A DNA stretch of 64,000 bases from Flavobacterium crassostreae (lineage in GTDB: Bacteria > Bacteroidota > Bacteroidia > Flavobacteriales > Flavobacteriaceae), in contig NZ_CP017688.1 in NCBI RefSeq assembly GCF_001831475.1, positions 2,790,001 to 2,854,000 of the forward strand, given 5' to 3'. The position numbers were made by a program, and so were the translations under genes. Below are positions 300 to 62,872 of the stretch, piece by piece. The stretch's first letter is position 1; each line of letters starts with the position of its first letter. The notes beneath the pieces were generated by a model. That model was not told the DNA's origin, did not search any database, and saw only the letters and a program-made list of their open reading frames with translations.

Positions 300-605
300 T
301 TAAAGAAAGAATGAACGTAGAACAGTGGCCGCAACGATCAAGAAGATACACGCACCGAACCACGAAGCCGCCGTTTTGCTTGTATCAGGATCACCTGAAC
401 TAAATTTGTTGTACACCTTAACTCCTCCGATGAGACCTACTACGGCACCAATGGCGTAAATGAGCTGTGTGGCGGGGTCGAAATAAGACGTTACCATTTG
501 GGTTGCTTCAGTGATTCCAGCAGTACCATTTCCCTGTGCGAAAACACCAATTCCTGATAGCAATGTAATGACTGCCACCAAAATTTTTTTACTTTGTTTT
601 TTCAT
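300..605 (-). CDS. traE: Conjugative transposon protein TraE (DUF4134)
   Basis: A 101-residue protein: signal peptide (residues 1-23, ending GVFAQG), a short linker, then two transmembrane helices (about 45-65 and 80-100). This VirB2-like layout, with the phrase IYAIGAVVGLIGGVKVYNKF, is typical of DUF4134/TraE, a membrane component of the Bacteroidetes transfer apparatus. It is followed at once by traF. Upstream on the same strand, where traD would normally sit, lies an opposite-strand defence island, so traE needs its own promoter. A candidate is at 659-734. The start is the only ATG that includes the whole signal peptide. Confidence 0.92.
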   Translation of the reverse strand: MKKQSKKILVAVITLLSGIGVFAQGNGTAGITEATQMVTSYFDPATQLIYAIGAVVGLIGGVKVYNKFSSGDPDTSKTAASWFGACIFLIVAATVLRSFFL

Positions 606-658: not shown

Positions 659-734
659 CAAAGGTGTTTCAGAAATTGAGGCGAGATAACAATTTGGCAG
701 TGAGTGGAATTACTTGGCGGTGGGTGGCATTTAC
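659..734 (-). promoter_or_regulatory. traE promoter with two period-20 direct repeats
   Basis: Read on the minus strand: CACCCACCGCC, nine bases, CACTCACTGCC (plus positions 716-726 and 696-706). Exactly 29 nt then lead to CACCTTTG (659-666), one base off the TAnnTTTG -7 box. A TTG lies about 22 nt upstream of that box. The same arrangement precedes traA, mobC and the DUF1896 gene. A perfect hairpin (CCCACA-CCT-TGTGGG, 635-649) sits in the leader. The spacing is seen directly; binding by a shared activator is inference. Confidence 0.55.
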
Positions 735-2080: not shown

Positions 2081-2149
2081 AAGTCAATGAAGAATAATAC
2101 TTTTTTAAGATAGAATAGTTAAAAATAAAGATTTACAAAAATAAAAAGA

Positions 2150-3697: not shown

Positions 3698-4884
3698 GTT
3701 ATTTAGAAAAATTATTAGAAGGCGTTGAGGTGGAGTGGAAGATTTTGGGTGAGGTTGCAAAAGTAGGAACTGGCAGTAGTAACGGAAATGAAGCAGATCA
3801 AAATGGTGAATATCCTTTTTTTGTACGTTCGCAAAAAATAAAAACCAAAGATACTTTCGAGTACGATGAGGAAGCAATAATAATTCCAGGAGAAGGAGGA
3901 ATAGGAGATATTTATCACTATATAAACGGAAAATACGCGTTACATCAAAGGGTATATCGTATTCATTTTAACATTGATTTTGTAGATACTCGCTTCATAT
4001 ATTATTATATGTGCACAAATTTCAAACGTTTTATTATGACTAAGGCAGTAAGTGCTACCGTTACGTCTATTCGTAAACCAATGATAGAAAATTTTCCTAT
4101 CCCAATTCCCAGCCCTGATAATCCAAAAAAATCACTCGAAATACAACAAAAAATTGTTGGAATTCTCGATTCATTTACGGAGCTTACAGCGGAGCTTACA
4201 GCGGAGCTTACAACACGTAAAATGCAATATAGTTATTATAGAGAGAAGTTGTATTCCTTAGATAAAATTAAAGTACAACATTTACCTTTGGGTGATGAAA
4301 ATATCGGCAAATTTATTCGTGGCGGTGGTTTACAGAAAAAAGACTTTACTGAAACAGGAGTTGGTTGTATTCACTATGGACAAATCTATACTTACTATGG
4401 AACATACGCTAATAAGACTAAATCATTTGTTTCAGAAGAATTTGCGAAGAAAGCAAGAATGGCAAAATACGGAGATTTGGTCATAGCAACCACAAGTGAA
4501 ACTGATGAAGATGTATGTAAAGCAGTAGCTTGGTTGGGAGATAAAGAAATAGCAGTAAGTAGTGATGCTTGTTTTTATCGTCATAATTTAAATCCAAAAT
4601 ATGTGTCTTACTTTTTTCAAACAGAACAATTTCAAAAACAGAAAAGACCTTTTATAACAGGTACAAAAGTCAGACGTGTAAATGCAGATGATTTGGCTAA
4701 AATTAAAATTCCGGTTCCTTCCAAGGAAGAACAAGAACGCATAGTTACAATTTTAGATAATTTCGACACGCTTACTAATTCAATAAGCGAAGGCTTACCA
4801 AAAGAAATAGAGTTAAGAAAAAAACAATATGAGTATTATAGAGATTTGTTACTAACATTTCCTCAGGATAATTTAGAATTATAA
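3694..4884 (+). CDS. hsdS: Type I restriction specificity subunit HsdS with TAEL repeats
   Basis: 396 residues. Two target-recognition domains (about 10-150 and 190-345) are each followed by a conserved helix with similar wording ([12 protein letters not shown] and [12 protein letters not shown]), the internal symmetry expected of HsdS. The central conserved helix carries tandem TAEL units (about 162-174), encoded by a 12-bp DNA repeat at 4179-4214. This is the hallmark of type IC enzymes such as EcoR124I, where repeat number sets the spacer length of the recognition site. The two domains differ, so the target is bipartite and asymmetric; the sequence cannot be read off here. The stop is 1 bp before prrC. 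Confidence 0.95.
4179..4214 (+). repeat. 12-bp tandem repeat encoding TAEL units in hsdS
   Basis: GGAGCTTACAGC occurs twice perfectly (4179-4190, 4191-4202) and a third time with its end changed (4203-4214). It keeps frame, so gain or loss of a unit would add or remove four residues in the central helix. Confidence 0.9.
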
Positions 4885-4885
4885 T

Positions 4886-6076: not shown

Positions 6077-6084
6077 ACTGAATT

Positions 6085-9000: not shown

Positions 9001-9189
9001 GATGCAGCAAAACGATATATTACAGCATCTTTAAAGCGTGAATTTGCGAATGAAAACGGTACTGAACTCAATAGTATTTTACCAAAAATGAGTCCTTTAA
9101 ATCCTCAATATTTGACTAAAAAGCAAAGTGTTTTTCAAAAAATAGCCACTTTCGTAGAAAAATTTAAAGGTGTTGGTGGTCAGTTATAA
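6085..9189 (+). CDS. hsdR: Type I restriction endonuclease subunit HsdR
   Basis: 1034 residues, near the 1038 of EcoR124I. The N-terminal PD-(D/E)xK nuclease has E167-x-K169 (VQVELKKRG) followed by the type I NQVHRY motif. The SF2 translocase has Walker A TTGSGKT (K315), DEAH at 410-413, FTGTP, and the late motif [20 protein letters not shown]. The C-terminal helical part docks onto the methylase. Together with HsdM and HsdS it moves DNA and cuts unmodified DNA. It starts 8 bp after prrC and closes the operon. I see no clear terminator in the 145 bp before the convergent traD gene. Confidence 0.96.
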
Positions 9190-9334: not shown

Positions 9335-9970
9335 TTACACAAACTCCCCAATGTCAAAATCCTCGAAATCATTTTTCCGCAAAATGGAAGAACCAGTTTC
9401 CGTTTCAGAAGAAAGGCTGTTGTCCAATAGCTCGGCTATTTTACGTGAAGCACCTTCCATAGAATTTTCCAGTAGGCTGAATAATTCGGTTCCTTGTATT
9501 TTCTGTACAATGGCAACCGCTGTTTCCTTTTGGATTGGCTCCCATTTGTCTTTCTGAAGCAGCTCCCCCACAGAATTTAGTTCTTCAAAAGTAACACCTT
9601 GGGCAAAACCGTTACCACCATCGGATAATTTATACCTGTTCCATTCTTCTTCCTCTTCTTCAAAATCAGGCCTATTTCTGAAAATTTCGTCCAGCTCTTC
9701 CTGCGGAATTTGAATGGCGACGTTTTCATTTTCGTCGTATTCTATGTCAAAATTATCAGGATTAATTTCCAGTTCTTCAACTTGGTTTTCAGTGGCATTG
9801 TTTGGCATCGAAAGGCTTTTCCTAGGTCTAGGTTGCCCCATAATATCGGGCAGTTTAGGGTTGCTTTTTTCCTGTATCGACTTTCTTTCTGAACTTTTTT
9901 TGATTACAATCTTATCCTGCAAAAGTAGGGCAATGATTATCAGCAGGCATATCACAATTACTATTTCCAT
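9335..9970 (-). CDS. traD: Conjugal transfer protein TraD-like
   Basis: 211 residues: one N-terminal transmembrane helix (2-18, VIVICLLIIIALLLQDKIV), then a long soluble, strongly acidic region (EEEEEEWNRYKLSDGGNG around 105-120). This matches the small membrane-anchored proteins annotated TraD in Bacteroidetes conjugative transposons and sits right after traB. The molecular job is not established. It is now the last gene of traA-traB-traD because the defence island separates it from traE. The ATG at 9970 is 3 bp after the traB stop, which supports coupling. Confidence 0.7.
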   Translation of the reverse strand: MEIVIVICLLIIIALLLQDKIVIKKSSERKSIQEKSNPKLPDIMGQPRPRKSLSMPNNATENQVEELEINPDNFDIEYDENENVAIQIPQEELDEIFRNRPDFEEEEEEWNRYKLSDGGNGFAQGVTFEELNSVGELLQKDKWEPIQKETAVAIVQKIQGTELFSLLENSMEGASRKIAELLDNSLSSETETGSSILRKNDFEDFDIGEFV

Positions 9971-9973
9971 AAC

Positions 9974-10429
9974 TTATAAAATAGGTTTGTATTTATCATT
10001 AAAACTCTTGGTAATCTGCTCTCCAAATTCCTGAAAATGGTAGTCCAGCAAATTGTCTAAATAGCCGTAAATGGTTATTTTGTCTTCACCGATTACTTGT
10101 GCAATGCGTGACAATTTTTCGTGAAAATCTGGTCGGATATAAACCGTTTTTCCATCTCGGGCATTCGTGTCTGTTCTTTTGAAAAAGAGGCTTTCGTAAT
10201 CTGTTTCGTTTGTTTTTTTAATTTTGGTCTTTTCCTTCGCAGCAGGTTTCTCCAATGGCAATTTTTCTGGCGCAACATTTTCCTTTTTGGGTGTTTCAAT
10301 AAGTGGCTCCACAGGTAATTGTAATCCCTCTTTTTTTACGCCATCTACCATCAGGCTCATCATCAGTTCCTCGTTAATATCAGGCGTACTTTTTTTCTTA
10401 TTTTCTTTTTCCATTGGGCTATAATTCAA
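9974..10429 (-). CDS. traB: DUF3408 protein, TraB-like
   Basis: 151 residues. A charged, low-complexity N-terminal half (about 1-90) is followed by a compact C-terminal domain starting TVYIRPDFHEKLSRIAQVIG and ending KPIL, characteristic of DUF3408. The domain looks like a ribbon-helix-helix DNA binder (short strand, two helices). It overlaps the ParA gene by 11 bp, as parB-type partners do. I infer a ParB-like or regulatory partner of TraA, possibly binding the repeat-rich region at 11,187-11,540. Confidence 0.8.
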   Translation of the reverse strand: MNYSPMEKENKKKSTPDINEELMMSLMVDGVKKEGLQLPVEPLIETPKKENVAPEKLPLEKPAAKEKTKIKKTNETDYESLFFKRTDTNARDGKTVYIRPDFHEKLSRIAQVIGEDKITIYGYLDNLLDYHFQEFGEQITKSFNDKYKPIL

Positions 10430-11186
10430 TGATTTTTAAAAACTCATTTATAAATTGATCTAACTGACTGGCTTTCATCAAGCGTTCGTCGGGTGGCATT
10501 ACGGTAGAGCGGAAAACGGCTTTGCTGTTTACTTCGCTTTCTTTGCGAAAACGCGTGCTGTTTTTGATTTGGCTCTGCATCAGGCTTAATCCCAACTGGT
10601 CAATGAGTTGGTTATAAATGGCATATAAAGGGGTGCTTTCCCTACCATCAACCTGGTTCCAAAACAGGTTAATGGTTTCTATGGAAGTTTCGCCTTTTTT
10701 CATAATTACATCCTGCAAGAGTTGTGTAAAAATGAGCGTACTTTCCATTACCACACGGTCTGCCGTAATAGGTGTAAAAATATGGTGCATTCCTGCCAGT
10801 GCATTCAAAATACCAGGCGTGTTAACCGTTCCGGGCAGGTCAAAAAAGACCACATCAATTGGTATTGAAGAACTACTTAAAAATTCGTGAGCAGTTTCCA
10901 ATACGCTATCAGCTCTGGCTTGCATAATTGGGTAAGCTTTTTTGTTTATCGTGGTAAATTGTTTGTACGCAAGCTTTTTCAAAGATTCGTTTTCCATTAC
11001 CATCGCCAAATCTCTTGACTTCATTTTCATTAGACTGTGCTGTGGAAAATCGGCATCAAATACGGCTACATTATAGCCTAATCGATAGTGCATTGTACTT
11101 GCAACCAATGTTGTAAATGTACTCTTACCAACACCGCCTTTTTGAGATGAAAAGGCGATAAATACTGTTTTGTGTTTTGCATTCAT
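10419..11186 (-). CDS. traA: ParA-family ATPase TraA
   Basis: 255 residues, deviant Walker A KGGVGKST with signature Lys16 and P-loop Lys21, switch region VFDADFPQHS (about 41-50), and Walker B-like DVVFFDLPGT (about 113-122). ParA ATPases position or segregate DNA. In conjugative transposons the protein called TraA heads the tra operon, perhaps helping maintain or position the excised circle. It overlaps the DUF3408 partner. The leader is unusually long: the likely promoter (11,517-11,584) is over 300 bp upstream, with a repeat-rich segment between. Confidence 0.93.
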   Translation of the reverse strand: MNAKHKTVFIAFSSQKGGVGKSTFTTLVASTMHYRLGYNVAVFDADFPQHSLMKMKSRDLAMVMENESLKKLAYKQFTTINKKAYPIMQARADSVLETAHEFLSSSSIPIDVVFFDLPGTVNTPGILNALAGMHHIFTPITADRVVMESTLIFTQLLQDVIMKKGETSIETINLFWNQVDGRESTPLYAIYNQLIDQLGLSLMQSQIKNSTRFRKESEVNSKAVFRSTVMPPDERLMKASQLDQFINEFLKIIEL

Positions 11187-11530
11187 ATTTCAACTGTTTT
11201 TTTAATTACTTATATCCTCAATTACTTAGGTATGCATATAGGTTTGTATCTCTATACAGAATTATATACCTAGGTACATAATTATTCACCAAGCTATTTA
11301 TGTACTTGAATACATTTTTATGGCTATAAGCGGATAGTTTCGTACAACCATAAATACTTATTTATATACCTGTTTTTTTGCATACACATTTGCATATTTA
11401 AGTATTTCAATAGGTACTTTTTTACATCTTCACATCTGTATTTATTTACATTGGTAATGATGTACTTACGTTGTTACCTGCATAGCTAATTACATCCCTA
11501 TATGTGTTTGTAAGTACAAATAAATGCAGA
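11187..11530. repeat. AT-rich segment dense in short TACCTA/TACTTA-type words (parS-like?)
   Basis: No open reading frame looks real here. The stretch carries many near-copies of two mirror words, AGGTA/TACCT (near 11,227, 11,270, 11,366, 11,411, 11,474, 11,534) and TACTT/AAGTA (near 11,207, 11,219, 11,301, 11,355, 11,399, 11,463, 11,511). They occur in both orientations and several are flanked by TA. The region forms the leader of the ParA/DUF3408 operon. Partition sites and autoregulatory operators often lie there. The density is seen; the role is inference. Confidence 0.4.
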
Positions 11531-11584
11531 TAAATAGGTGTTTACATTATCGTGGTAGTGTTTGGCTTCCAAAGGCAGAGTTTG
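11517..11584 (-). promoter_or_regulatory. traA promoter with two period-20 direct repeats
   Basis: Minus strand: CAAACTCTGCC, nine bases, CAAACACTACC (plus 11,574-11,584 and 11,554-11,564), then exactly 29 nt to TTTATTTG (11,517-11,524), one base off TAnnTTTG. It is nearly the same 34-bp block as at 23,152-23,182. It points to traA across a leader of about 330 nt. Confidence 0.6.
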
Positions 11585-11690
11585 ACCAAGTATAACATTG
11601 CAATACTCTTATCAACAGGTGTTTACTTTGTAAAATGAATTTTAATAACGGATTTATGCAAAGCATCTTGATAAAATGGAGACTAAGCAG

Positions 11691-15075: not shown

Positions 15076-15102
15076 ACAGAATAATTACTTCATTTAATCA
15101 GA

Positions 15103-15170
15103 CAAATACCGACACTTAAAGCCAAAGAATACCACATTGTCACAACTACTCTTTAGAGCCTTTAAATTCA
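15103..15170 (+). promoter_or_regulatory. mobC promoter with two period-20 repeats
   Basis: CAAATACCGAC (15,103-15,113), nine bases ACTTAAAGC, CAAAGAATACC (15,123-15,133), then 29 nt to TAAATTCA (15,163-15,170), a weak TAnnTTTG match. The block TTAAAGCCAAA-nnn-TACCACAT is also shared with the DUF1896 promoter. The first repeat is the most diverged of the set. Confidence 0.5.
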
Positions 15171-15195: not shown

Positions 15196-17196
15196 ATGCA
15201 GGGAGAAGACGATTTAAGAGGACTTGCCAAGATTATGGCGTTTATGAGAGCAGTGAGCATTCTTTTGGTACTGATGCACCTTTATTGGTTTTGCTACGGT
15301 TTCTTTATAGAGCGTGGCTGGACACTAGAACTCATCAACAAAGTATTAGGCAATTTTCAACGGACGGCAGGCTTGTTTTCGCATACCCTGTATACCAAAA
15401 TATTTGCCATAGTTCTATTAGCATTAAGCTGTTTAGGAACTAAAGGCGTAAAGAATGAAAAGATAACTTGGACAAAAATTTATATTGCTTTGGGATTTGG
15501 TTTTTTTCTGTTTTTTCTCAATACATTTCTGCTGAAATCAACAATCAACAGCTCTACATTTCTGTATATCCTTACCACAGGTTTAGGCTACATCGCTTTG
15601 ATGGTAGCTGGGGTTTGGATGAGCCGTTTACTTCACACTAACCTGATGGAAGATGTTTTCAATAATGAAAACGAAAGTTTTATGCAGGAAACCAAATTAA
15701 TGGAAAACGAATATTCTGTCAATCTCCCCACAAAATTTTATTACAAAAACAAATGGAATAACGGCTGGATAAACATCGTCAATCCTTTTAGGGCAACTAT
15801 TGTTTTAGGAACTCCAGGTTCCGGAAAATCCTATGCCATTGTAAACAGTTACATCAAGCAACAGATTGAGAAAGGTTTCAGTATGTATATCTACGATTTC
15901 AAGTTTGATGATCTTTCTACCATTGCTTACAACCATCTTTTGAAGCACGGCGATAAATACAAAGTTAAACCCAAATTTTACGTCATCAACTTTGATGATC
16001 CTAGAAAGAGCCACCGATGCAATCCACTCAATCCAGATTTTATGACGGATATATCAGATGCTTACGAAGCGGCTTATACTATAATGCTAAACCTCAACCG
16101 AAGCTGGATACAAAAGCAGGGCGATTTCTTTGTAGAAAGTCCGATTATATTATTGGCAGCCATTATTTGGTATCTCAAAATTTATGACAATGGGAAATAC
16201 TGCACCTTTCCACACGCCATTGAATTATTGAACAAGAAATATTCGGATGTATTTACCATTCTGACTTCATATCCTGATTTGGAAAATTATCTTTCGCCTT
16301 TTATGGATGCTTGGCAAGGCGGAGCTCAAGACCAATTGCAAGGGCAAATTGCATCGGCGAAAATTCCTTTGTCAAGAATGATTAGCCCGCAATTGTACTG
16401 GGTAATGACAGGCGATGATTTTTCACTGGACATTAACAATCCTAAAGAACCAAAGATTTTGTGCGTTGGTAACAATCCCGATCGTCAAAATATCTATTCC
16501 GCAGCATTGGGTTTGTATAATTCAAGAATTGTAAAACTCATCAATAAAAAAGGGCAATTAAAGAGTTCTGTAATTATAGACGAGTTGCCTACGATTTATT
16601 TTAGGGGGCTTGATAATCTGATTGCTACAGCAAGATCTAACAAAGTTGCTGTTTGTTTGGGCTTTCAGGATTATTCGCAATTGATAAGGGACTATGGAGA
16701 TAAGGAAGCAAAGGTTATCCAAAATACTGTTGGTAATATTTTCTCTGGTCAAGTTGTGGGCGAAACGGCAAAAAGTTTATCGGAACGTTTCGGGAAAGTT
16801 TTGCAGAAACGTCAGAGTTTATCAATCAACAGAAACGACACTTCAACTTCAATATCGACACAATTAGATAGTCTAATTCCAGCTTCTAAAATCTCAACTT
16901 TAACACAAGGTATGTTTGTAGGTGCTGTTTCGGATAATTTTGATGAACGTATTGAGCAAAAGATTTTCCACGCTGAAATTGTTGTGAATAACGAAAAAGT
17001 GGCTTCCGAAACAAAAATTTATCAAAAAATACCTCAGATTTTATCCTTTATAAATGAGCAAGGTGAAGACCAAATGAAACAAGAAATCGAAAGCAATTAT
17101 CGCCAGATAAAAAAAGACATCGTTCTAATTATTGCAACGGAATTGAAGCGGATTAAAAATGATCCTGATCTGCAACATTTGGTACAAAAAGAATAA
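15196..17196 (+). CDS. mobC: MobC, type IV coupling protein (VirD4/TraG family)
   Basis: 666 residues. Four N-terminal membrane helices (about 15-37, 60-78, 90-112, 118-140) precede an ATPase domain with Walker A LGTPGSGKS (about 209-217), YDFKFDDLSTIAY, and Walker B VIIDELPTIYF (about 457-467), plus GFQDYSQL. Coupling proteins link the relaxase-DNA complex to the secretion channel and drive DNA export at the inner membrane. The start MQGEDDLRGLAKIMAFMRA is the usual N-terminus for this family. It is separated from its customary neighbour mobB by the inserted nuclease-like gene, and probably has its own promoter at 15,103-15,170. Confidence 0.95.
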   Translation: MQGEDDLRGLAKIMAFMRAVSILLVLMHLYWFCYGFFIERGWTLELINKVLGNFQRTAGLFSHTLYTKIFAIVLLALSCLGTKGVKNEKITWTKIYIALGFGFFLFFLNTFLLKSTINSSTFLYILTTGLGYIALMVAGVWMSRLLHTNLMEDVFNNENESFMQETKLMENEYSVNLPTKFYYKNKWNNGWINIVNPFRATIVLGTPGSGKSYAIVNSYIKQQIEKGFSMYIYDFKFDDLSTIAYNHLLKHGDKYKVKPKFYVINFDDPRKSHRCNPLNPDFMTDISDAYEAAYTIMLNLNRSWIQKQGDFFVESPIILLAAIIWYLKIYDNGKYCTFPHAIELLNKKYSDVFTILTSYPDLENYLSPFMDAWQGGAQDQLQGQIASAKIPLSRMISPQLYWVMTGDDFSLDINNPKEPKILCVGNNPDRQNIYSAALGLYNSRIVKLINKKGQLKSSVIIDELPTIYFRGLDNLIATARSNKVAVCLGFQDYSQLIRDYGDKEAKVIQNTVGNIFSGQVVGETAKSLSERFGKVLQKRQSLSINRNDTSTSISTQLDSLIPASKISTLTQGMFVGAVSDNFDERIEQKIFHAEIVVNNEKVASETKIYQKIPQILSFINEQGEDQMKQEIESNYRQIKKDIVLIIATELKRIKNDPDLQHLVQKE

Positions 17197-20200: not shown

Positions 20201-22657
20201 ATATTTATCCCATATATGCACATTCTTTTGATTGCACTTTACCGAAAAATCATCCGAACTTTCGGAATAATGGATATTGACTTCCGTATCAAACAAGTGC
20301 GAAGCAAAACGGGCATAAATCCCTGTGGGTATCCAGCGTTCGCCGAGATTGAAATCCAGTTCTTCAAACTCAATGCGTCTTGGTTTGGCTTCTTCCAAAA
20401 CCGTAAGACTTACTTTGGCTTCTGCATCATCGGGACTACTTTCAAGATAGGCTTTGACCTCTTCAGATTTCTCTACTATATTTCCAGCAATCCATCGCTC
20501 GGCTATATCATATTCCTTTTGTAGAGGATTATAGAAAATACGACCGTGTAGAGCCTCTTTCAAAGCATCGGCAGGCATACTGCTGATTTCGGACATATAA
20601 TACAAATCCACCTTGCCGTATTTGTTCAGTGATGATGCTAAAGCTTCATCAGGATTGTCTGTTGCTAAAGTGGTAGTAGAAAAAGTAACGGGACGACTGA
20701 ATATATCCGCCTTATGCACCACACCACCAACTACACGTTCCAGATAAGGAATTTCTTTCCCTGCACTGTCTGTTTTAATCAATTTGATATTTTCGGCACT
20801 GTTCAAATTGCCATATCTTTTTACAAAAACATCATACAAATTATTCAGCGTTTCCCTTTCTACTGTATGTTCGTTTTGCTTTTCGGCTTCCTTTTGATAC
20901 AAATCGAGATAGCTATCTCTTACTGAAATGTAGGCTTCGGCTCTTACTTTCTGCAATGATGGTAATTGCAAGGGATGGAACATTGCCGTTGCTCCATTTT
21001 TATCAACATCTTGCAAATGACCAACACAACCATTATCTATAACAAGACAATCACTTCGATGAAATGATTGTAATCCTTTGCTGTATAGAGCAGGTTCGGG
21101 AATGGTACTGACAACGGTTTGCTTTTGAGCCTGACCATTTCCGTTTAAGTCCGAAAACAGGTCGCCGATAACTTCCTCTTTTTTGCTGACAGCTGAAGTA
21201 TTTCCATTGGTATTTCCATTTGAAATTGGAGGGATATAAGGTGGCTGTATCGCCGAACTGAACAAGTCTGCTTGGCGAACAATATTGGCTCTTCGCTTCG
21301 TGGAAGTTTGCCTTTGAGTTTGAGTACCTTTTTTTGGTGGAGCAATAACCGCTACTGGTTCGTCCACATTTTCAAACAAGTCGAAAATGCTTAATTGTTT
21401 TAATTCATTTGGATTTTCCTGAATGGTTACAGGTGTTGGTTTAATCGTTATAGGCTCTACAATGGGAGCTGTAACAGTTGTTGTAATTGGAATTTGTATG
21501 TTCGGCTCGCCTTTGTATAAACTCAAATTCAGATGATTTTCAAAATCTTCTGAAAGCATTTTTTTAAGGTCTTTGGTAATGCCGGTAACGCCATCTTTAT
21601 GCGTATAAATTAAGGCTGGTTTTCCATAAGGGTCGGTGTCTAATTTTCTATCGGTATGAACAATTCTTGTGCTATCCTGAAAAAAAGCATTGTTTGGTGT
21701 ATTATATTCTGTTGTATTACTTTGGCAAAACAGTTCTTCCACTTCGGTCAGACTTTGTTTTGCCGTATTTTTTTGCAGGATAATCAGGTCGCTTCCAACT
21801 TCTGTACCTGCATATTCAGTAAACAGATTATTTGGCAATCTAACAACCGAAACCAGATTACTATTCTGCATCAACGCCCTGCGTATCGGTTCGTTTTTTG
21901 GGCTATTTAGAATACCCTGCGAGGTAACAAATGCCAACAAGCCACCGTCACGGAGCATATCCGTTCCTTTTAAAAAAAAATAATTGTGGATGCTTCGGGA
22001 TGCCTGTATTTTTGCTTCGTCCTTACTTCGGGAATATGAAAGGTCAAATATGGAAGTATCGCCAAAAGGGATATTACTTGCAATTACATCATAAGTGTTT
22101 TGTTCCTTTTTGGGTATTTCCTCAAAACCACTTATACGGATATTGCTTTCGGGATAAAGCTGTTTTAAAATCTTGCCTGTCAGCAAATCCTTTTCATAAG
22201 CCGTTACATTGGGTTGCTGGTTTTCGGAAAAGGATTGTATGAAAGAGCCGATACCTGCGGAAGGTTCAAGGAATTTTTGAATGTTCAAACCGCTATCACT
22301 CAATGTTGAAGAAATTGCATCTATAACCTGTGGCGGTGTATAAAAAGCCGTCAGCACCGAACTTTTCATACTGTCCACATACCTGCGGTATTGCTTTTCG
22401 TCTTCGGAATTTTCTCTTAATAGTTGGTGGAGCTCCTGTGTAAGTGGAAATAAATCATGTTCAGTTTTTCGCCAATTATTGATGTCTATTTCATTTTCTA
22501 TGGGGTTTAATACGAATTTAAGACCGCCAAATCCGCTGTATTGCATCATTAGCAGTCTTTCGCCTATGGTAGTTTGTCGGTTCTCCTTTTCAATTTTGAA
22601 AGCAATTCGTAAGGCATCAATGTTCTGTTGGAGATGTTGCTTTTTACTGAAGCCCAT
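17270..22657 (-). CDS. Giant methyltransferase-helicase fusion (N6-adenine MTase + SF2/SNF2-like helicase)
   Basis: 1795 residues. The N-terminal methylase has motif [11 protein letters not shown] (130-139) and motif IV as SNIPFG (194-199) instead of NPPY, a variant I associate with this mobile-element family. A low-complexity linker (about 395-500) follows. The helicase has Walker A EVGAGKT (near 948), DESH (near 1114), and a C-terminal GTGVNAQ...[11 protein letters not shown] motif (near 1440-1480). A coiled-coil tail ends it. No restriction partner is present, so it probably marks or remodels element DNA during transfer, or masks it from restriction. It overlaps the DUF1896 gene by 14 bp. 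Confidence 0.88.
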
Positions 22658-23081
22658 TTTCCGCTATCCATATTGCGATGGTTCCGGTTATTTCGGTGTA
22701 GAGCTGGTCATACTCATAACCATAAGCGAAGTCATCAGTTAGTTCATAGTTGGAGAAAATAGGTTCACAAACACGGAACATTTTTAAAGCAAATGGTCGC
22801 AATTCTTCATCTGCCATTATGGTGTCGAACTCATTACAAACCACCTGAAACACGGTATCGAACTTAGAAAAATGTAAACCATCGAAAAGAATATAATTGG
22901 CTATTTCGTTACATTTGTCAATATCGTTACCAGATTGAAAAGCACCCTCGTAAGCAGTGCTTGCCCACGAGGAACGTTGATTGATGAATTTTTTATCGTT
23001 TGCTTTTTCGGGGAAACTGGTGTTTAATAATTCTTGTAGTCGTAACCTGAAATACGATAGGTCTTTCTGTTGCGTATCCAT
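22644..23081 (-). CDS. DUF1896 family protein
   Basis: 145 residues, soluble, helical, starting [20 protein letters not shown] with the repeated wording of DUF1896 ([30 protein letters not shown]). These small proteins are nearly always found just upstream of the large methylase-helicase in Bacteroidetes elements, as here with a 14-bp overlap. I infer a partner or regulator of the helicase; no activity is known to me. Its promoter is at 23,115-23,182. Confidence 0.85.
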
Positions 23082-23114: not shown

Positions 23115-23182
23115 TAAAATTAGAGCAGGAAGTGAAAGAATTTAAAGATGTGGTAGGGTTTGGCTTTAAAAGGTAGGGTTTG
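23115..23182 (-). promoter_or_regulatory. DUF1896/helicase operon promoter with two period-20 repeats
   Basis: Minus strand: CAAACCCTACC twice, perfect copies with 20-bp period (plus 23,172-23,182 and 23,152-23,162), then 29 nt to TAATTTTA (23,115-23,122), close to TAnnTTTG. This is the cleanest member of the set. Confidence 0.65.
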
Positions 23183-23522
23183 ACCTAAAAAGTAAAACCT
23201 CTTTTTTAAGACCTTTTAAAACTCACAATACCATAATGAGTATTTCTAAATTCTCTATCTTGTGTTATTCATTATATTTAACACTGTAAATTTAATCAGG
23301 CACTGAATGAATCGAATTAAAGCAGTTCTGAAAGAAAAATGACTCTAATGCTTGACTTGCTAAATAGTTAGACAAAAGTTATAATACTATAAATGAGTTA
23401 ATTTTTCAGATTATAATCCTATCACTAGTTTTTAATAAAAAACACAACTGATTTGTTTTTTTTATATTGATTAAGAAAAAATAGATATAATTTAACTACT
23501 TTTGTTTCAAATTATAGTCTAA
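23183..23522. other. Gene-free AT-rich junction between transfer module and metal cargo
   Basis: No coding potential seen. A perfect TAnnTTTG box (TACTTTTG, 23,497-23,504) lies 18 bp before the ATG of the Cys-rich protein. The left edge of the metal cargo lies somewhere here; I see no flanking repeat or transposon end. Confidence 0.4.
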
Positions 23523-51452: not shown

Positions 51453-51656
51453 ATGGACTTTTTTCCACGGCTTTCAGAAATTACCGAGTTGTCAGTTCCT
51501 GAAACAAATTCATTTCTTGTTTACCTACTGTATTCTTGTGCACTTTTATGGCTATTCATTCCTTATCTTATGAAAAGAAAACTTAGTTTTGGTCTGAATT
51601 TAAATTATTCAAATACAACAAACCCTTCTGAAGTTTCAGAAGGGTTTGTTTTTTAA
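51453..51656 (+). CDS. Small membrane protein whose 3' end runs through a terminator
   Basis: 67 residues with one membrane helix (about 21-41, VYLLYSCALLWLFIPYL) and the Lys-rich tail MKRKLSFGLN. It starts 6 bp after the previous stop. The last dozen codons lie in the hairpin at 51,618-51,649 and overlap the end of the convergent ORF6N gene by 21 bp, so the true C-terminus may be degenerate. Function unknown. Confidence 0.5.
   Translation: MDFFPRLSEITELSVPETNSFLVYLLYSCALLWLFIPYLMKRKLSFGLNLNYSNTTNPSEVSEGFVF
51618..51656. terminator. Bidirectional terminator between metal cargo and ORF6N gene
   Basis: ACAAACCCTTCTGAA (51,618-51,632) and TTCAGAAGGGTTTGT (51,635-51,649) pair perfectly with a 2-nt centre, followed by T6. 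It contains the stop of the minus-strand gene. It marks the right edge of the metal operon. Confidence 0.75.
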
Positions 51657-52523
51657 AATTTGGAACATTCTGCCTAGTTCAATATCCATTCTCGAAAAGG
51701 CGAACCATTTTTTACCCATGTCTTTGAGTGATGCTCCAATATGGTAAAGTTCTGTATCGTCAATAATCAAAAAGCGGTCGTGAGCATCGGAAAAAAGCTC
51801 GATCTCAATTGGAGGGTATTGGCTGTTGTACCGTTGCAAATCCAATCGTAGCAGATTGCTGATAGTTTTGGTATAAATCATTGCAGTTACATTAGTATTC
51901 CGTTTGCCCAACAAAGTAAGAACTGTATCATCCACATAATTATCAAGCAGGATAACAGAACTTTTGGCATTTCGGATAATATCGGACACAAAAGTATAAG
52001 CATCAAAAATTTGTCCATTATAGAAAACACCTTTTTCGCTATGTAGTTTGTCGGTTTCCAATGCTTTAAAAATTTCTTCAAAATTCTGGTCGGCTTCTAA
52101 TTGTTTGAGTTCAATCTTATCCAAACGATGAAAAAGCGAAGCATTACTGATGAGCATTCTACGCATTTCTGCGAAAGCGTTTATAATTTCAATACTGACT
52201 TTTATGGCAATTTCTGAACGAAGTACAGCAGAAAGCATTGCAATGCCTTGTTCGGTAAAAGCGTAGGGCAAATAACGTCTTCCGCCGTAATTTAAACTTG
52301 AGGTTCCAATTTGGAACCTCAAGTTTTCAACTTCCTTTGCATTCAGTTGAAAGCAAAAAGAAGTAGGAAATCGTTCAGTATTTCTTTTTACGGCTTTATT
52401 GAGGTTCTTTGTTTCCACCTGATAAATCTTTGCCAAGTCGCTATCTAGCATAACTTGTTGATCTCTTACGGTATAAATCTGATTTTCAATTTCCTGCCGA
52501 CTAATGATAGCTTTACTTTCCAT
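51636..52523 (-). CDS. ORF6N-domain protein with PLD-like C-terminal region
   Basis: 295 residues. The N-terminal ORF6N domain (about 8-95: IENQIYTVRDQQVMLDSDLA, ETKNLNKAVKRN, RFPTSFCFQL, YAFTEQGIAMLSAVL) is a DNA-binding-associated domain of phages and mobile elements. A coiled middle (about 130-160) leads to a C-terminal segment with HDRFLIIDD and GASLKDMGKKW (about 250-275), like half of a phospholipase-D-type active site. It is common as accessory gene in Bacteroidetes elements; role unknown, possibly regulatory or defensive. It lies 6 bp after topB in the same direction. Confidence 0.8.
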   Translation of the reverse strand: MESKAIISRQEIENQIYTVRDQQVMLDSDLAKIYQVETKNLNKAVKRNTERFPTSFCFQLNAKEVENLRFQIGTSSLNYGGRRYLPYAFTEQGIAMLSAVLRSEIAIKVSIEIINAFAEMRRMLISNASLFHRLDKIELKQLEADQNFEEIFKALETDKLHSEKGVFYNGQIFDAYTFVSDIIRNAKSSVILLDNYVDDTVLTLLGKRNTNVTAMIYTKTISNLLRLDLQRYNSQYPPIEIELFSDAHDRFLIIDDTELYHIGASLKDMGKKWFAFSRMDIELGRMFQILKNKPF

Positions 52524-52529
52524 TACTTT

Positions 52530-54611
52530 TTATAGAATTTTTTTTTTCTCAAATTCAAAGGAACTTTCAGCCTTATCATTTAATACGATATAGGCATCGA
52601 ATTTCTTTCCAGCTTTACTTTTCATCCCTTTAAGCAGAGCCGTTTTGCCTTTCTTGACTAGGCTTTCAATATCAGCAATGCTGATCTGTAGGCCACAAAC
52701 ATTGCGGAACTGTAACCAGTTACAAACTTCATCAGAGCATTTAACTATTTTATCTCTAATAATCAGTTGCTGGGTTTTACATTTTGGGCAAATAAGTTGG
52801 GGCAGGTTTTCGTGGATAATATTGGTTTGTAACAATTCATTTGTAATAGATTTTGCATACGTTTCCATTTCCTTTTGAAAAGCCCTTGCATCCGCTTCGT
52901 TGTTTTCAATTTTCTGCAATGCCAATTCCCATTCGGCCGTCATTGCCACATCTGCAATTTTGCGGTCTTTAACTAGCTCATAAACCTGCAATCCTTTTTC
53001 GGTTGGGATTAAAGACTTCTTTTCCCGTTCGATATAATTGCGAGTAAACAATGTTTCAATAATTGAAGCCCTTGTAGCCGGAGTACCAATACCGATATTT
53101 TGAAGGGCTTTACGTTCCTTTTCATTTTCTATTTTCTTTCCGGCACTTTCCATAGCTGACAAAAGCCCTGCTTCGGTATAAAGCACAGGCGGTTTGGTTT
53201 CCTTTTCCAAAACGGTGGCCTCCTTGATTTTGAGTTCGTCGCCTTTTTTAAGTTCGGGCAAATCCTGTAAAGTTTCAGTATCATTATCGGAAAAACTACC
53301 TTTAATAGAACGCCAGCCAGCTTCTATAACTTTAGAGCCTTTTACGATAAAATCGCAATGCAATACCTGTAATTCGACATTGGTTATCTCTTTGATACAA
53401 GATTGTGAAAGAGCTTCAAGTAATCGAAAGGCAATCATATCATAAACAGCATTTTCTTTAACAGATAATGCGGAGGGGATTTTATCTGTAATTAATAATC
53501 CGTGATGGTCGGTAACACGCAAGTCGTTCACGATGCGTTTATTAAAACGTCCCCATTTCATTTTTGATACGGCTTGCTTACAGGTTTCTTTGTCCTGCAA
53601 AGCTCTAACGAGATTTGGAATTTCAGTCCATATATCTTCAGGAATATATTTACTTCCGGTACGTGGGTAAGTGATAAACTTTTTTTCGTACAAACTTTGG
53701 GCAATATTCAGCGTTTCTTCGGCAGAAAGGTTGAACTTTTTGTTAGCTTCCTTTTGTAGTCCTGTAAGGTCAAACAATAAAGGTGGTTGTTCAGTAACGC
53801 TTTTGATTTCTACGGATGTAACTGTTGCAGTATTTCCGTTTCTTTCGATAGTTCTCAATGCATCATCTGCCTGCTTTTTATCATCCCATTTGGTTGTAGA
53901 AAGGCTTTTAAATGCAATCATTTCCTTATGGTGTAACAATTGTATCTGATAATATTTCTTTATTGAGAAGTTTTTGTTGTCTAGATAACGTTTGCAAATC
54001 AAGGCAAGCGTTGGTGTTTGTACTCTTCCGAGCGAATAAATTCCATTTCCAGCAGCTATGCTTAATGCCTGCGTAGCATTAATTCCTACAAGCCAATCGG
54101 CTTGGCTTCTGCCTTTTGCAGATTGGTATAATCCGTTAAATTCCTTTCCGTTTTTCAGGTTATCAAAGCCTTGTTTAATCGCCTTTTCAGTAAGTGAACT
54201 TATCCATAATCTCTCAAAAGGCTTACTGCATTTAAGGTATTCATAAATATATCGAAAGATGAGTTCGCCTTCACGACCTGCATCAGTAGCTACAATTATG
54301 CTATCACATTGATTAAATACTTGCTCAATTACTTTTAATTGCTTTAATGCACCTGTATCAGCTACATAATTTTTGTCCTTTTTCACTTTACGAACGGTTA
54401 ATAAAAATGGGTTGGGAAGTATCGGAAGCGAGGTTTTCTGAAAACCTGATATTCCGTAATCTTCTGGCATTCCTAATCCGACTAGGTGTCCAAATGCCCA
54501 AGTAACACAATAGCCGTTGCCTGTCAGATAGCCATCCTTTTTTTCGGAAGCACCCAACAAGCAGGCTATTTCTCTTGCTACGCTTGATTTTTCTGCAATT
54601 ATTGCTTTCAT
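52530..54611 (-). CDS. topB: DNA topoisomerase III TopB
   Basis: 693 residues from the ATG at 54,611, chosen because MKAIIAEKSSVAREIA is the conserved start; an in-frame ATG at 54,665 adds 18 unconserved residues. TOPRIM motif VATDAGREGELIFRYI (about 100-115), GRVQTPTLALI, active-site Tyr in FITYPRTGSKYIP (about 319-331), and a C-terminal zinc-finger-like LICPKCKTQQLI. Type IA enzymes pass single strands. Element-borne TopB is thought to help process or re-circularise transfer DNA. It lies in an operon with the DUF3945 gene upstream. Confidence 0.93.
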   Translation of the reverse strand: MKAIIAEKSSVAREIACLLGASEKKDGYLTGNGYCVTWAFGHLVGLGMPEDYGISGFQKTSLPILPNPFLLTVRKVKKDKNYVADTGALKQLKVIEQVFNQCDSIIVATDAGREGELIFRYIYEYLKCSKPFERLWISSLTEKAIKQGFDNLKNGKEFNGLYQSAKGRSQADWLVGINATQALSIAAGNGIYSLGRVQTPTLALICKRYLDNKNFSIKKYYQIQLLHHKEMIAFKSLSTTKWDDKKQADDALRTIERNGNTATVTSVEIKSVTEQPPLLFDLTGLQKEANKKFNLSAEETLNIAQSLYEKKFITYPRTGSKYIPEDIWTEIPNLVRALQDKETCKQAVSKMKWGRFNKRIVNDLRVTDHHGLLITDKIPSALSVKENAVYDMIAFRLLEALSQSCIKEITNVELQVLHCDFIVKGSKVIEAGWRSIKGSFSDNDTETLQDLPELKKGDELKIKEATVLEKETKPPVLYTEAGLLSAMESAGKKIENEKERKALQNIGIGTPATRASIIETLFTRNYIEREKKSLIPTEKGLQVYELVKDRKIADVAMTAEWELALQKIENNEADARAFQKEMETYAKSITNELLQTNIIHENLPQLICPKCKTQQLIIRDKIVKCSDEVCNWLQFRNVCGLQISIADIESLVKKGKTALLKGMKSKAGKKFDAYIVLNDKAESSFEFEKKKIL

Positions 54612-54671
54612 ATGAATATTTTTATTGTTTTCATTTGTGATATGGAATACCCTAAAGCATTTCATAATTCA

Positions 54672-56129
54672 CTACATTTTTCTACCTTTAGATTTAGCAG
54701 GCGCTTGAGGTTTTTCCTGTTGCTCTTGCTGATTTTTATCTTTTGGAGTTTGTTGTTTCGGTTGTAAAGGCTCCTTGATATTCTTTGTTGCTTCATTAGT
54801 TTTACCATCCGAATTAACCGCAGTTTGCGTTTTATGAGCTTCAGTAGGTTTCGCTTGTTCTTTAAGCTTATCGGGATTTTGAAAAGAAAAATCGGTTTTA
54901 TTGGTGTCCTTATTCAACGTGATATAACCTTGATACGGCTTACCTTGCTTATCTGTCAAACCATTGATGTAAATAGTCTGACCAGCTTTGAATTTATCGT
55001 ATTGCTCATTATCCAATTCCTTACCTCTAAAAGTTCTCGGAACTTCTTGCGAGTTATTTTGCTGATTGTTTTGTCCGTTGCTTTGTGTTTGCTGATTAGT
55101 ATTGCCTCTATCGAACAGAAATTCTACATAACGTTTGTCTGCATTGAATTGTACCGTTGCTTCAAACTCAGTTCCTTTTTTGGAAATCATTCCCTCTAAA
55201 TGAAGCGGTTTGCCTTCCATTAAAGTTTGCTTTTGCTCATCATTCAGTTTTACGTTTTTTATTTCATCAGGTATTTTTATGAATTCTGTTTTCAGTGCAA
55301 TCAATTCATTCGTTAACCTATCCACGCTGATAATTGACGGAATGGTTTCGCCTGTTTTGGAATTTTTCAAATCGACCATACGCCCCATATTTCCTGAATC
55401 AAGCAAGTTTTTCTTGTCTTCATCAGTAAACTTGTGTCCGAAAAATTCAAAATTTAAATTCGGCTCTTTACGGATGCCGTGAATGGCGACCACTACCTTA
55501 CCTTCGTCATTTTGTTGCAAAGAAAGTCGGGCATCCATTCGGGTAACGGCAGTGCCGAGGTTAAGACTTACAGGTACAAGTTCATTGGTTTTAAAACCTT
55601 TCAATAAAGGTTCTAATAAGTTCATTTTTTCCAGACGTTCTTTGCCTAATCCAAGATTGTTCATTGTTTCCCAATCAATCTGTTCAGGCTTGTAACGGTA
55701 TTCGTTATTTTCCGTTGCTTTTTGTGTTGCTTCCATATTGTTTTGATTTATTTGTTTATGTTCAGGATTAACTGTTACCTCATCTTTTTTCATTTTTTTT
55801 TCGCCCTCTGGTGTAGGATGATCTACCTGCTTCTGAAGTTCTTTTGCTTTTTCTAAGGCTTTGTCGGCTGGTACTTGAAAGAATGTAAATTTGGTAGGGT
55901 CTTTCAGTTGTCTGTAAAAATTGGAGAAGAAGTTAGAAATCAAATCACCTTGTTTGTCCACCCGCATAAATTCGCTTTGGTTCTTCTTGGTGGGGTTAAT
56001 GGTTTTCATTTTCCCGTTTTCGTCAATACTCTTTACGGCTTGAATTTTCATTTTTTCTTTATCCAACACCAATAATATATCCGATAATTGTTCGGGCAGT
56101 TCCTGTTTATTTATTGTTTCGTCATTCAT
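54672..56129 (-). CDS. DUF4099/DUF3945 protein
   Basis: 485 residues, soluble, highly charged. The middle part YKPEQIDWETMNNLGLGKERLEKM (split about 145-170) is the DUF4099 start. Repeated DUF3945-like beta-helical units follow (KPLHLEGMISKKGTEFEATV, TIYINGLTDKQGKPYQGYI). The tail is Gln/Lys/Pro-rich, ending KSKGRKM. It is a regular companion of topB in Bacteroidetes ICEs; activity unknown. A perfect TAnnTTTG box and a single repeat half-site lie upstream (56,156-56,213). Confidence 0.82.
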   Translation of the reverse strand: MNDETINKQELPEQLSDILLVLDKEKMKIQAVKSIDENGKMKTINPTKKNQSEFMRVDKQGDLISNFFSNFYRQLKDPTKFTFFQVPADKALEKAKELQKQVDHPTPEGEKKMKKDEVTVNPEHKQINQNNMEATQKATENNEYRYKPEQIDWETMNNLGLGKERLEKMNLLEPLLKGFKTNELVPVSLNLGTAVTRMDARLSLQQNDEGKVVVAIHGIRKEPNLNFEFFGHKFTDEDKKNLLDSGNMGRMVDLKNSKTGETIPSIISVDRLTNELIALKTEFIKIPDEIKNVKLNDEQKQTLMEGKPLHLEGMISKKGTEFEATVQFNADKRYVEFLFDRGNTNQQTQSNGQNNQQNNSQEVPRTFRGKELDNEQYDKFKAGQTIYINGLTDKQGKPYQGYITLNKDTNKTDFSFQNPDKLKEQAKPTEAHKTQTAVNSDGKTNEATKNIKEPLQPKQQTPKDKNQQEQQEKPQAPAKSKGRKM

Positions 56130-56155: not shown

Positions 56156-56213
56156 CAAATGTAAAATAGGCATTCACTACATTGCTCACAGGTGTATTCA
56201 AAGGCAGTGTTTG
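56156..56213 (-). promoter_or_regulatory. Promoter of the DUF3945-topB operon with single repeat half-site
   Basis: Minus strand: CAAACACTGCC (plus 56,203-56,213), 39 nt, then TACATTTG (56,156-56,163), a perfect TAnnTTTG. The half-site and its flank CTTTG match the traA block, but the second half is not conserved and the spacing is 10 nt (about one helical turn) longer. Confidence 0.5.
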
Positions 56214-56522
56214 TCATTTATTTGCGTTCAATTTCTTTATGGGACTATTAAAACTCTCCCTTATAAACTGATGCACATCAGACAACTTGTAATAGAGTTT
56301 TCCGCTTATCGTATAATACGGTAGTTTGCCTACTGAACGATAACGCTGAAGCGATCGACTGCTAATTTTTAGCATCTGAAGAAGATCTTGATTATCTAGT
56401 AATTCTTCTCCGTCAATAGTATTTCGTTGTTTTTGAACATCATTTATATGTTCATTCAAGATATCAAAGCGATCCATGATACGCTCCATCCATGCTACAA
56501 ATTCCATTCTATCAATATTCAT
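56214..56522 (-). CDS. Helix-turn-helix protein (excisionase/MerR-like)
   Basis: 102 residues from the ATG at 56,522 (an in-frame ATG at 56,609 adds unlikely residues). An N-terminal coiled helix (EFVAWMERIMDRFDILNEHI) leads into a winged HTH: LLDNQDLLQMLKISSRSLQR, YRSVGKLPYYTISGKLYYKL. This is the small DNA-binding type of element regulators and recombination directionality factors. It lies between rteC and the DUF3945/topB operon, the place of such factors in CTnDOT-like elements. A role in excision or operon control is inferred. Confidence 0.75.
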   Translation of the reverse strand: MNIDRMEFVAWMERIMDRFDILNEHINDVQKQRNTIDGEELLDNQDLLQMLKISSRSLQRYRSVGKLPYYTISGKLYYKLSDVHQFIRESFNSPIKKLNANK

Positions 56523-56746
56523 AAGACTATACTTTATGTTTATATTTTTTTCGATTTGCTTATTGTAAGCTGTGCAAATTTGAGAAGTAGCGCAATAATT
56601 GTCTGCCAAGTCTTACCAATTGAAAATGATTATTTTTATTTTTTTCGATATAGGATTAACTTGAGATGTAGTTGTTATTTTGGTTGTTGAACAAGAAATA
56701 CACGAGAAGATTCCATATTTACCAATTGGCATTTATGGGCATAAAA

Positions 56747-56795: not shown

Positions 56796-57641
56796 TTATA
56801 AATCTTTATCCATGTATTCTTCCATAGTTACTTTAAGCTGGTCTAAAAACATAGTTCTAGATCCAGCCCTATCTTTCATTCTGTGAAAGGCATGATGAAT
56901 GTCTCCTAAAGGAATACGAAATAAATGATGAAAAACTAAGCTGATTTTTCGAATGCCAATTTTTCCATTTGAAATCGCTCCTGACACATGTAAAGCATAA
57001 ATTAGTTCTATCAGCGCATTTTTAGAACCTGTCCAAAAAAAATCTTTTACAGATTCTGGATTTTGTAATATGAAATCTGTTTTTTGATCAAGATTTACTT
57101 TGCTTAATAAATAAGTATAAAGTAATTCATTAGCTATTATTTTAGCTATTTTATAATCATAGTAAGTAGAAAAACTAGAATCTATTTCAAAAACAAAACT
57201 GTTAAGTCCAGTATGATAATTTATTTTACCTAACATAAAATATTCTTTATCTCTATCTATTCTTCTTGACCTATAGTACCTATAAAAATCTGAATTGCAG
57301 ATATGATCTTTATATTCTTGTTTTAGTTCTTCTAATTCATTTGAAAAAAATGTATGGTACATTTGTCCATTATTAACAGGACAGGATGTTTCAATCCTAA
57401 ATAACTTATTGTAATAAATTAGCTTTCCTAATATTTGAGGTTTTATATTTCTAAAAAAGTCAATCTCTTCAGATTCATCTTTAAAACCTTTTTCTACAAT
57501 TTGCTTTTTAACTGTAGCTAACAATTGCGTTAAGTATATAATTATTCGTGAGGATTCATCAATTATATTACTTGTTTCCGAAGTAACTTTCATCTCATAC
57601 TCCTTAATTTCATCAAGTATATTATTTAAACAAATATTCAT
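56796..57641 (-). CDS. rteC: RteC family regulator
   Basis: 281 residues with the RteC wording throughout: FFRNIKPQILGKLIYYNKLF, a central RSRRIDRDKEYFMLGKI, and the C-terminal winged-helix half WTGSKNALIELIYALHVSG, LGDIHHAFHRMKDRAGSRT. In CTnDOT RteC activates the excision genes and so starts transfer. Here it is followed by its own terminator and then the HTH gene, matching RteC control of excision genes. Whether an rteA/rteB pair exists cannot be seen in this window. Confidence 0.9.
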   Translation of the reverse strand: MNICLNNILDEIKEYEMKVTSETSNIIDESSRIIIYLTQLLATVKKQIVEKGFKDESEEIDFFRNIKPQILGKLIYYNKLFRIETSCPVNNGQMYHTFFSNELEELKQEYKDHICNSDFYRYYRSRRIDRDKEYFMLGKINYHTGLNSFVFEIDSSFSTYYDYKIAKIIANELLYTYLLSKVNLDQKTDFILQNPESVKDFFWTGSKNALIELIYALHVSGAISNGKIGIRKISLVFHHLFRIPLGDIHHAFHRMKDRAGSRTMFLDQLKVTMEEYMDKDL

Positions 57642-62790: not shown

Positions 62791-62872
62791 AATAAAGCGC
62801 AATCCATTATGGATTGCGAGTGCAAATGTAATTATTAATTTGAATACTAAAAAATATAAATCAAATTAATTG

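Follow-up and report, generated by a model that had tools for sequence, protein, structure and literature searches.

A putative four-unit operator shared by the transfer promoters of a CTnDOT-type conjugative element in Flavobacterium crassostreae

A 64,000-nucleotide stretch of the Flavobacterium crassostreae chromosome (NZ_CP017688.1, positions 2,790,001 to 2,854,000, forward strand; hereafter the window) contains an integrative and conjugative element (ICE) that belongs, by its gene content, to the CTnDOT type. The scattered transfer gene groups of this element are preceded by blocks that comparison of sequences shows to be one operator 40 bp long, in which a G(C/A)CA unit recurs four times, every 10 bp, at a fixed distance before a -7 promoter box. 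It is fairly probable that these are the operators of one element-wide regulon, and that their reader is of the excisionase/BldC type, the best candidate being the helix-turn-helix protein HTH_17 encoded in the element. One small element-encoded protein, then, probably switches the transfer gene groups on together.

Operators of the window

The four main operators and their -7-like boxes are the following.

659..728 (-): traE promoter operator, units GCCACCCACC GCCAAGTAAT TCCACTCACT GCCAAATTGT (728-689), box CACCTTTG (666-659)
11517..11586 (-): traA promoter operator, units GTCAAACTCT GCCTTTGGAA GCCAAACACT ACCACGATAA (11586-11547), box TTTATTTG (11524-11517)
15101..15170 (+): coupling-protein promoter operator, units GACAAATACC GACACTTAAA GCCAAAGAAT ACCACATTGT (15101-15140), box TAAATTCA (15163-15170)
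23115..23184 (-): DUF1896/helicase operon operator, units GTCAAACCCT ACCTTTTAAA GCCAAACCCT ACCACATCTT (23184-23145), box TAATTTTA (23122-23115)

The original prediction had recognized blocks in the orientation of the gene at these four places, and all of them were confirmed, as was the distance of exactly 29 nt between the end of the second of two 11-bp repeats and the box, which holds in all four. The repeats, described there as two copies with a period of 20 bp, are present, but the real unit is about 10 bp long and occurs four times: in each of the four promoter classes the commonest GCC-GCC distance is 10 bp, and after the comparison the two-copy 11-mer model was replaced by four 10-bp units. 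The proposed word CAAACNCTRCC is matched twice, at 20 of 20 letters, before traA and DUF1896, but only at 15/20 before traE and the coupling-protein gene, which is unexceptional within the window, where several word pairs at other periods also reach 15-16 of 20. The traE and coupling-protein sites were accepted because every one of the four promoter classes is conserved among relatives of the element. As for the TAnnTTTG-like box, its offset is indeed fixed, but the likeness is approximate, with 4-5 of 6 letters matched in the four main window sites.

Geometry of the operator

De novo matrices were obtained for each promoter class, with 64/67 (traA), 25/27 (traE), 60/63 (coupling protein) and 11/13 (DUF1896) distinct sites used. 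The consensus unit is GCCAnnnnnn (GCCA plus six bases), found four times, once per helical turn, and the class matrices read as follows.

traA: GCCAAACACT GCCTTTGAAC GCCAAACACT GCCACA
traE: GCCACTCACA GCCAAAnAAT TCCTCTGACT GCCACTTT
coupling protein: GCCAAACACT GCCACnCAnC GCCAnTGACT GCCACATTCT
DUF1896: GnCAAATCCT GCCTTTCAAA GCCAAACCCT nCCACTTCTT

The letters between the units are class-specific, while the GCC positions and the box offset are common to the classes across many genera. For the test of the box offset, the alignment of the sites used the 40 bp of repeats alone and left the box out. The mean TAnnTTTG match peaks at offset 62 in each of the four classes separately, i.e. the first unit starts 62 nt before the box; if the maxima were uniform and independent, all four would coincide among 50 offsets with a probability of 8e-6. 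At this offset, the mean box match is 4.0-5.0 of 6 letters by class (four trained classes), and the best box lies there in 49/64 traA, 25/25 traE, 55/60 coupling-protein and 10/11 DUF1896 sites, ties counted. Of 160 distinct promoter sequences, 159 lack a -33 TTTG at 18-22 nt spacing before the box. The tetrads are direct repeats, not inverted ones; dyads stand at the xis promoter region instead.

Conservation in related elements

Related elements were identified through 80 coupling proteins, the best of a longer candidate list, 89-93% identical, from Flavobacterium, Chryseobacterium, Sphingobacterium, Pedobacter, Chitinophagaceae and other hosts. Among 77 traA upstream stretches, the window and its copy included, 68 carried a repeat pair matching at least 17/20 with a period of exactly 20; eight were below 17/20, and one had a period of 25. 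A 70-column matrix was then trained on 156 sites (63+24+59+10) from related elements, leaving out the window's own. With this matrix the window sites score 48.8 bits (DUF1896), 48.4 (traE), 44.4 (traA) and 42.2 (coupling protein), and the next-best window matches 14.8 bits at 56,225 (-) and 12.8 bits at 9,816 (-); the maximum in the chromosomal background (340 kb of the same chromosome, both strands, 677,654 positions) is 9.4 bits. These two matches correspond to a fifth, degenerate operator and a sixth, intragenic one.

56156..56225 (-): operator before the DUF4099 - topoisomerase - ORF6N operon, units GCAAATAAAT GACAAACACT GCCTTTGAAT ACACCTGTGA, perfect -7 box TACATTTG at offset 62 (56163-56156)
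9748..9816 (-): operator within orf9335 (traD-like), units GCCTTTCGAT GCCAAACAAT GCCACTGAAA ACCAAGTTGA, -7 box TAATTTTG at offset 61 (9755-9748)

The four operons of the original prediction all hold, and the regulon also takes in the topoisomerase (Exc-like) operon and the promoter inside the traD-like gene. A further tetrad-like match at 60,179 (+), upstream of the open reading frame (ORF) at 60392 near the integrase-side HTH gene, is sub-threshold at 6.3 bits.

The operator was found in 72/72 loci with a traA start, 28/29 with a traE start, 79/80 coupling-protein loci and 12/14 with a DUF1896 start. Over the 80 related loci (1.65 Mb), among them the loci that supplied the training sites for four of the six classes, 280 of the 284 matches above 10 bits, overlapping registers being counted apart, fall at six fixed places: traA, traE, the coupling-protein gene, DUF1896/helicase, DUF4099/topoisomerase and the inside of the traD-like gene. 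Three of the four matches elsewhere are traE-like by reading, two of them near a locus end; the fourth, in L081, is unassigned. In related ICEs the repeats were thus present, at fixed places, rather than absent. No operator was seen in 71 stretches upstream of the MobC_2/MobA promoter (11882 in the window), using a crude consensus with a threshold of 17 of 20.

Two of the six classes were outside training. At the DUF4099 place a match of 18.0-62.5 bits was found in all 30 loci fetched with the HTH_17 gene, and at the orf9335 place 50 of the 64 loci with that gene exceed 10 bits (82 matches). Leaving the box out of the matrix moves the register by one unit in many of these sequences (peaks at 52 and 61), and the two offsets are therefore fixed only modulo one turn. 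Protein coding may add to the conservation in orf9335; a purely coding origin is argued against by elements L137 and L138, which have GACA tetrads and a good box there, matching the GACA units of their other promoters. On the sequence level, the comparison establishes the operator, its spacing, the membership of the regulon and its conservation, and bears out the proposal that a common fixed-geometry promoter layout joins the scattered transfer modules into one regulon.

Specificity was also examined over 296 genomes of the order. The strict 11-mer pattern occurs twice in the 3.03-Mb genome of F. crassostreae and is present in 4/296 genomes, its own included; the reversed pattern gave zero in both cases. 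The exact tetrad GCCAN6GCCWN6GCCAN6GCCA has 24 occurrences, spread over 12 of the 296 genomes, against one for the reversed pattern; the genome of F. crassostreae has none because its units deviate. Of these 24 occurrences, four lie upstream of traA, six of the coupling-protein gene and two of DUF1896, and three inside orf9335; one is near a DUF3408 gene, one is DUF1896-like with no gene found, five are in two arrays of one genome, and two fall outside these classes. GACA tetrads without a tail are weakly enriched genome-wide (23 matches vs 16 reversed), with five of the 23 at element genes (L210, L211, L212, L223, L224) and most others in low-complexity arrays. A GACA pattern with a TTTG tail gave 0/295, failing also on the known positives G374 and G478, and was discarded because its spacing was mis-specified.

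The candidate regulator and its competitors

The genes of interest lie next to the fifth operator.

56214..56522 (-): Xis2d-like HTH_17 protein (PF12728), 102 amino acids from an internal ATG, proposed regulator
56599..56728 (-): HTH_17 promoter region, with CAATTGG at 56728-56722 and 56622-56616 and TTGGCAGACAA at 56609-56599
56796..57641 (-): RteC homologue (PF09357, 7.8e-72), proposed upstream activator of the HTH_17 gene

The HTH_17 protein of the window matches Xis2d of a CTnDOT-type element at 43%. Of the 48 genomes that contain the coupling protein, 47 have an HTH_17 match, which is close (E 4.9e-45 or better) in 46, and the winged helix-turn-helix (wHTH) is nearly invariant among relatives. 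Among the matches to its predicted structure an excisionase ranks first, and BldC, Pukovnik Xis and RdfS are in the best seven. HTH_17 gave no match at E 0.01 to the NCBIfam family HTH_BldC (NF033787, cut-off 77 bits), and Xis2c of the CTnDOT-type element L136 scores 23.8 bits, under that cut-off; HTH_17 may work like BldC, though outside this family. In G303 (L014), where HTH_17 is a distant relative only, the traE stretch has no operator. The Sediminibacterium locus L032/G315, considered as an element without HTH_17, is a remnant with mob and traA genes and is uninformative because no transfer operon lies behind traA.

As to the protein, its stoichiometry, the activation and the transcription starts, we infer the following course. 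RteC would turn on the xis gene(s) through the dyad-containing promoter, and HTH_17 would in turn activate traA, traE-Q, the coupling protein, DUF1896/helicase and the topoisomerase operon at the same time, so that excision and transfer are coupled. Winged-helix protomers would bind head-to-tail, one per unit, on one face of the DNA, and the filament would touch and recruit RNA polymerase at promoters that lack the -33 TTTG. If transcription starts 5-8 nt after the box, the units would begin near -75, -65, -55 and -45, with the fourth ending near -42, shortly before the place where a -33 element normally stands; this would be an activator position. The activator on one DNA face that had been predicted is compatible with these one-face repeats, but four tandem protomers would fit better than one dimer. 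The fixed geometry across cargo insertions, with traE having its own operator in 28/29 loci, fits a modular switch.

Among the alternatives, the one that survives best, although we regard it as possible rather than probable, is that the binder is a paralogue of the Xis2c type, or a mixed filament of Xis2c and Xis2d. It overlaps with the reading given above, which concerns the excisionase/BldC type in general, and the probabilities of the two do not sum to one. An Xis2c-like ORF lies between rteC and the HTH_17 gene in 20 of 30 loci (8 further stretches are too short to tell), and L137 has the Xis2c type only; against this, the window and L108 lack an Xis2c-like gene there (none either in the incomplete stretch of L106), and the operators of the window are still conserved.

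That the tetrad is an activator operator bound by RteC rather than HTH_17 seems unlikely. A relative of RteC is present in 48/48 genomes, and in every examined element with tetrads at its transfer genes (in G382a a distant relative, within 40 kb). However, the region beside rteC, the expected RteC target by analogy with CTnDOT, shows CAATTGG dyads and no tetrad match, and before xis2c of a CTnDOT-type element the palindrome ACGTGAGTCACGT is seen by eye. Across elements of one kind, identity to the window's protein amounts to 60-77% for RteC, vs 80-93% for HTH_17, whose wHTH hardly changes. In the Prevotella element L139, a possible carrier of the layout, a stretch of 31 kb yielded no RteC. Over the window and 30 loci (some identical, the L106 stretch incomplete), the HTH_17 promoter region has a CAATTGG-type word in 31/31 and TTGGC[AG]GACAA in 30/31, a dyad-type architecture different from the tetrad. 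The CAATTGG words and TTGGCAGACAA are a possible RteC target and autoregulation site. Of the regulators named in the original prediction, RteC or an HTH protein, the Xis2d-like HTH_17 fits better, and RteC less well, since the xis promoter region has this different arrangement. The structure model of RteC (predicted local distance difference test score, pLDDT, 51) was too poor to judge and was not used. RteC occurs in many of the 48 genomes in at least two classes, about 60-77% and 36-46% identical to that of the window, which lie about 12-16 kb apart in G313, G310 and G305.

A tandem dimer of an AraC-family protein, each monomer carrying a pair of HTH motifs spaced by one turn, would account for the 20-bp repeat first noticed, and AraC genes do lie beside rteC in L137, L138 and G478b. 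This is quite improbable, considering that no AraC gene was found in two G374 stretches of 40 kb, that the AraC gene of the window (36713-37273) sits among metal-efflux cargo, and that the 20-bp superperiod is weak in the traE and DUF4099 operators. Still less credible are iterons or a partition site: the direct repeats adjoin traA, of the ParA type, with one-turn spacing, but the same element stands gene-directionally at five other places, with a fixed box distance in the four classes tested. Finally, recent duplication or functionless chance similarity could be imagined from the likeness of the traA and DUF1896 blocks, the only two strong sites by the window's own letters, but is of negligible probability and already contradicted by the comparative data, since across many genera the inter-unit letters are particular to each class while GCC positions and box offset agree, and the generic detector described below finds no chromosomal background match.

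Elements beyond the flavobacteria

A generic detector that requires four G(C/A)CA units and, at offset 60-63, a box gave no match in 340 kb of chromosomal background and was applied to Bacteroidales elements. The layout is kept, with GACA units, in some elements of Bacteroides and Parabacteroides. In L137 and L138, in two elements of G374 and in one of G478, the detector matched upstream of traA and DUF4099 and within or close to the traD-like gene. The units there are GACA or mixed, and the box has 5-6 of 6 letters except in one second-register match. Examples in L137 are GACAAATTCAGACAGCGCAGGACAAATCGGGACA with TACTATTTTTG downstream, and, at DUF4099, GACACCGCAGGACAAATTCGGACAGCCCTTGCCG with TACCTTTG at 62.

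It is conceivable, though somewhat doubtful, that in CTnDOT-type elements across Bacteroidota one grammar (four 10-bp units and a box at 62 nt) is read by an HTH_17 filament, the unit word drifting (GCCA, GACA, perhaps TTCCC in Prevotella) with the recognition helix. Several observations weigh against the proposed regulon and, above all, against its generality. The DUF4099 place is matched in only one of the three coupling-protein loci that reach DUF4099, and in G019b (coupling protein 81%, HTH_17 67% to that of the window) no clear operator was found. The detector gave no match in 18 of 30 element stretches. These comprise 14 of the 15 in which the coupling protein shares less than 60% identity with its L136 counterpart, together with G536, G019b, L139 and L140, G536 in spite of a split coupling protein 93-96% identical to that of L136. 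In the remaining one of the 15, G018, two matches occur, neither of them at transfer genes. Three CTnDOT-type stretches (L136, G478a, G447) give only single matches that are one and the same stretch, coding in L136, and were rejected as a false positive.

In the traA promoters of these three stretches a degenerate tetrad (nCAA, GCCA, GCAA, GCCA), with the box nearer 72, can be recognized by eye. In Prevotella L139, a letter-blind periodicity scan suggests TTCCC words with a 10-bp period at 5167 (-) and 30130 (-), with TACCTTTG 62-63 nt on, preceding DUF4134 and an HTH_17 pair. They are possibly the same layout with another word, but such scores also arise by chance elsewhere.

Gene context

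The CTnDOT-type core found in the window comprises traA/ParA, traE/DUF4134, a MobC-type coupling protein and the MobA relaxase, and further markers of the type are RteC, the Xis-like HTH protein, DUF4099/3945, the topoisomerase (Exc) and a tyrosine integrase. DUF3408, MobC_2, DUF1896, N6-methylase/helicase and ORF6N genes are also present. No tetQ-rteA-rteB operon was seen among the 40 window ORFs scanned against Pfam, the other 22 of the 62 listed being unscanned. The genes served by the operators are these.

300..605 (-): traE (DUF4134, PF13572), gene 1 of the transfer operon
10419..11186 (-): traA, ParA-type ATPase (ParA/CbiA families)
15196..17196 (+): type IV secretion system (T4SS) coupling protein (T4CP; MobC of CTnDOT-type elements; YWFCY, T4SS-DNA_transf, TraG-D_C)
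22644..23081 (-): DUF1896 (PF08989), then the N6-methyltransferase/helicase gene at 17270-22657
51636..56129 (-): operon of DUF4099/DUF3945, type IA topoisomerase (Exc-like) and ORF6N

The place between the traD-like gene and traE is of variable length, the traA-traE distance being 2.3-7.2 kb in 29 loci; in the window it holds a type I restriction-modification system and an AbiEii-like gene (877-9189, +). An ORF of 480 amino acids with no Pfam match (13633-15075, -) lies between MobA and the coupling-protein promoter and has relatives in 2/85 loci. The cargo at 24208-51210 (+), its ORFs partly scanned, encodes a CusA/AcrB-type efflux pump, HlyD, OEP, a haem-binding protein and the AraC protein, whose N-terminal half resembles by eye a metal-binding domain. 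Five tRNA genes (62706-63320, -) adjoin the integrase, a probable integration neighbourhood. The traA leader (11187-11516, -) is predicted to be about 325 nt long, and measures 287-396 nt in 39 non-redundant elements. A structured leader was considered and rejected: that of the window folds better than shuffled sequences (z -3.5), yet 15 leaders have no predicted pairs in common.

Discussion

In CTnDOT, the tra genes need both Xis2c and Xis2d, the Xis2d site is a dyad, and the operator of RteC is an inverted repeat. The excision proteins Xis2c, Xis2d and Exc control tra and mob, with RteC upstream (PMC5729914, PMC9956884). The element type, gene order and proteins of the present element are homologous, with the same succession from RteC to excision genes to transfer genes; the difference is the defined operator, which occurs six times in an element and combines four 10-bp units with a -7 box at 62 nt, compared with the weaker traA tetrad seen by eye in L136. 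Excisionase-type proteins that in addition activate transfer genes of an ICE are known from CTnDOT, where this activation has been published, and from RdfS.

Lambda Xis forms a cooperative excisionase filament on DNA with protomers about one turn apart, but acts in recombination at att sites, in contrast with the set of promoters considered here. A closer parallel in architecture is BldC of Streptomyces, a protein made up of a MerR-like wHTH only, which binds head-to-tail on direct repeats of about one turn, with four protomers on a four-repeat site (PMC5859096). HTH_17 has the MerR-like wHTH in common with it, and would share the one-turn direct repeats if it binds them; BldC differs in being a chromosomal developmental regulator with the consensus AATTXXXX(C) and partly indirect readout (PMC5859096). 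RdfS, a directionality factor of the wHTH kind encoded by ICEMlSym-R7A, is oligomeric, also activates transcription and is required for conjugation; for it no consensus motif was identified (PMC11963761), unlike the sharply defined units found here. With promoters of the Bacteroidetes primary sigma factor (sigma-ABfr), whose -7 element is TAnnTTTG (PMC7366714), the present ones share the -7 box at a fixed place, but not the -33 TTTG. For the operator, its six places and the GCCA/GACA drift, no matching description was found in a search limited to open-licence literature.

In Bacteroidota, CTnDOT-type elements belong to the chief vehicles of resistance and metal-tolerance cargo. The joint firing of their excision, processing and transfer modules is known genetically; a general operator was not found in the literature searched. 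A defined operator provides a sequence test for membership of the switch and predicts regulon members in unannotated elements, two promoters having been added in this way, and it makes the filament model and the drift of specificity directly testable. If one such grammar, with its drifting unit word, does hold across Bacteroidota, the assembly of the excision complex and the switching on of all transfer modules would be one act; moreover, each lineage would have its private circuit, and co-resident elements would not trigger one another.
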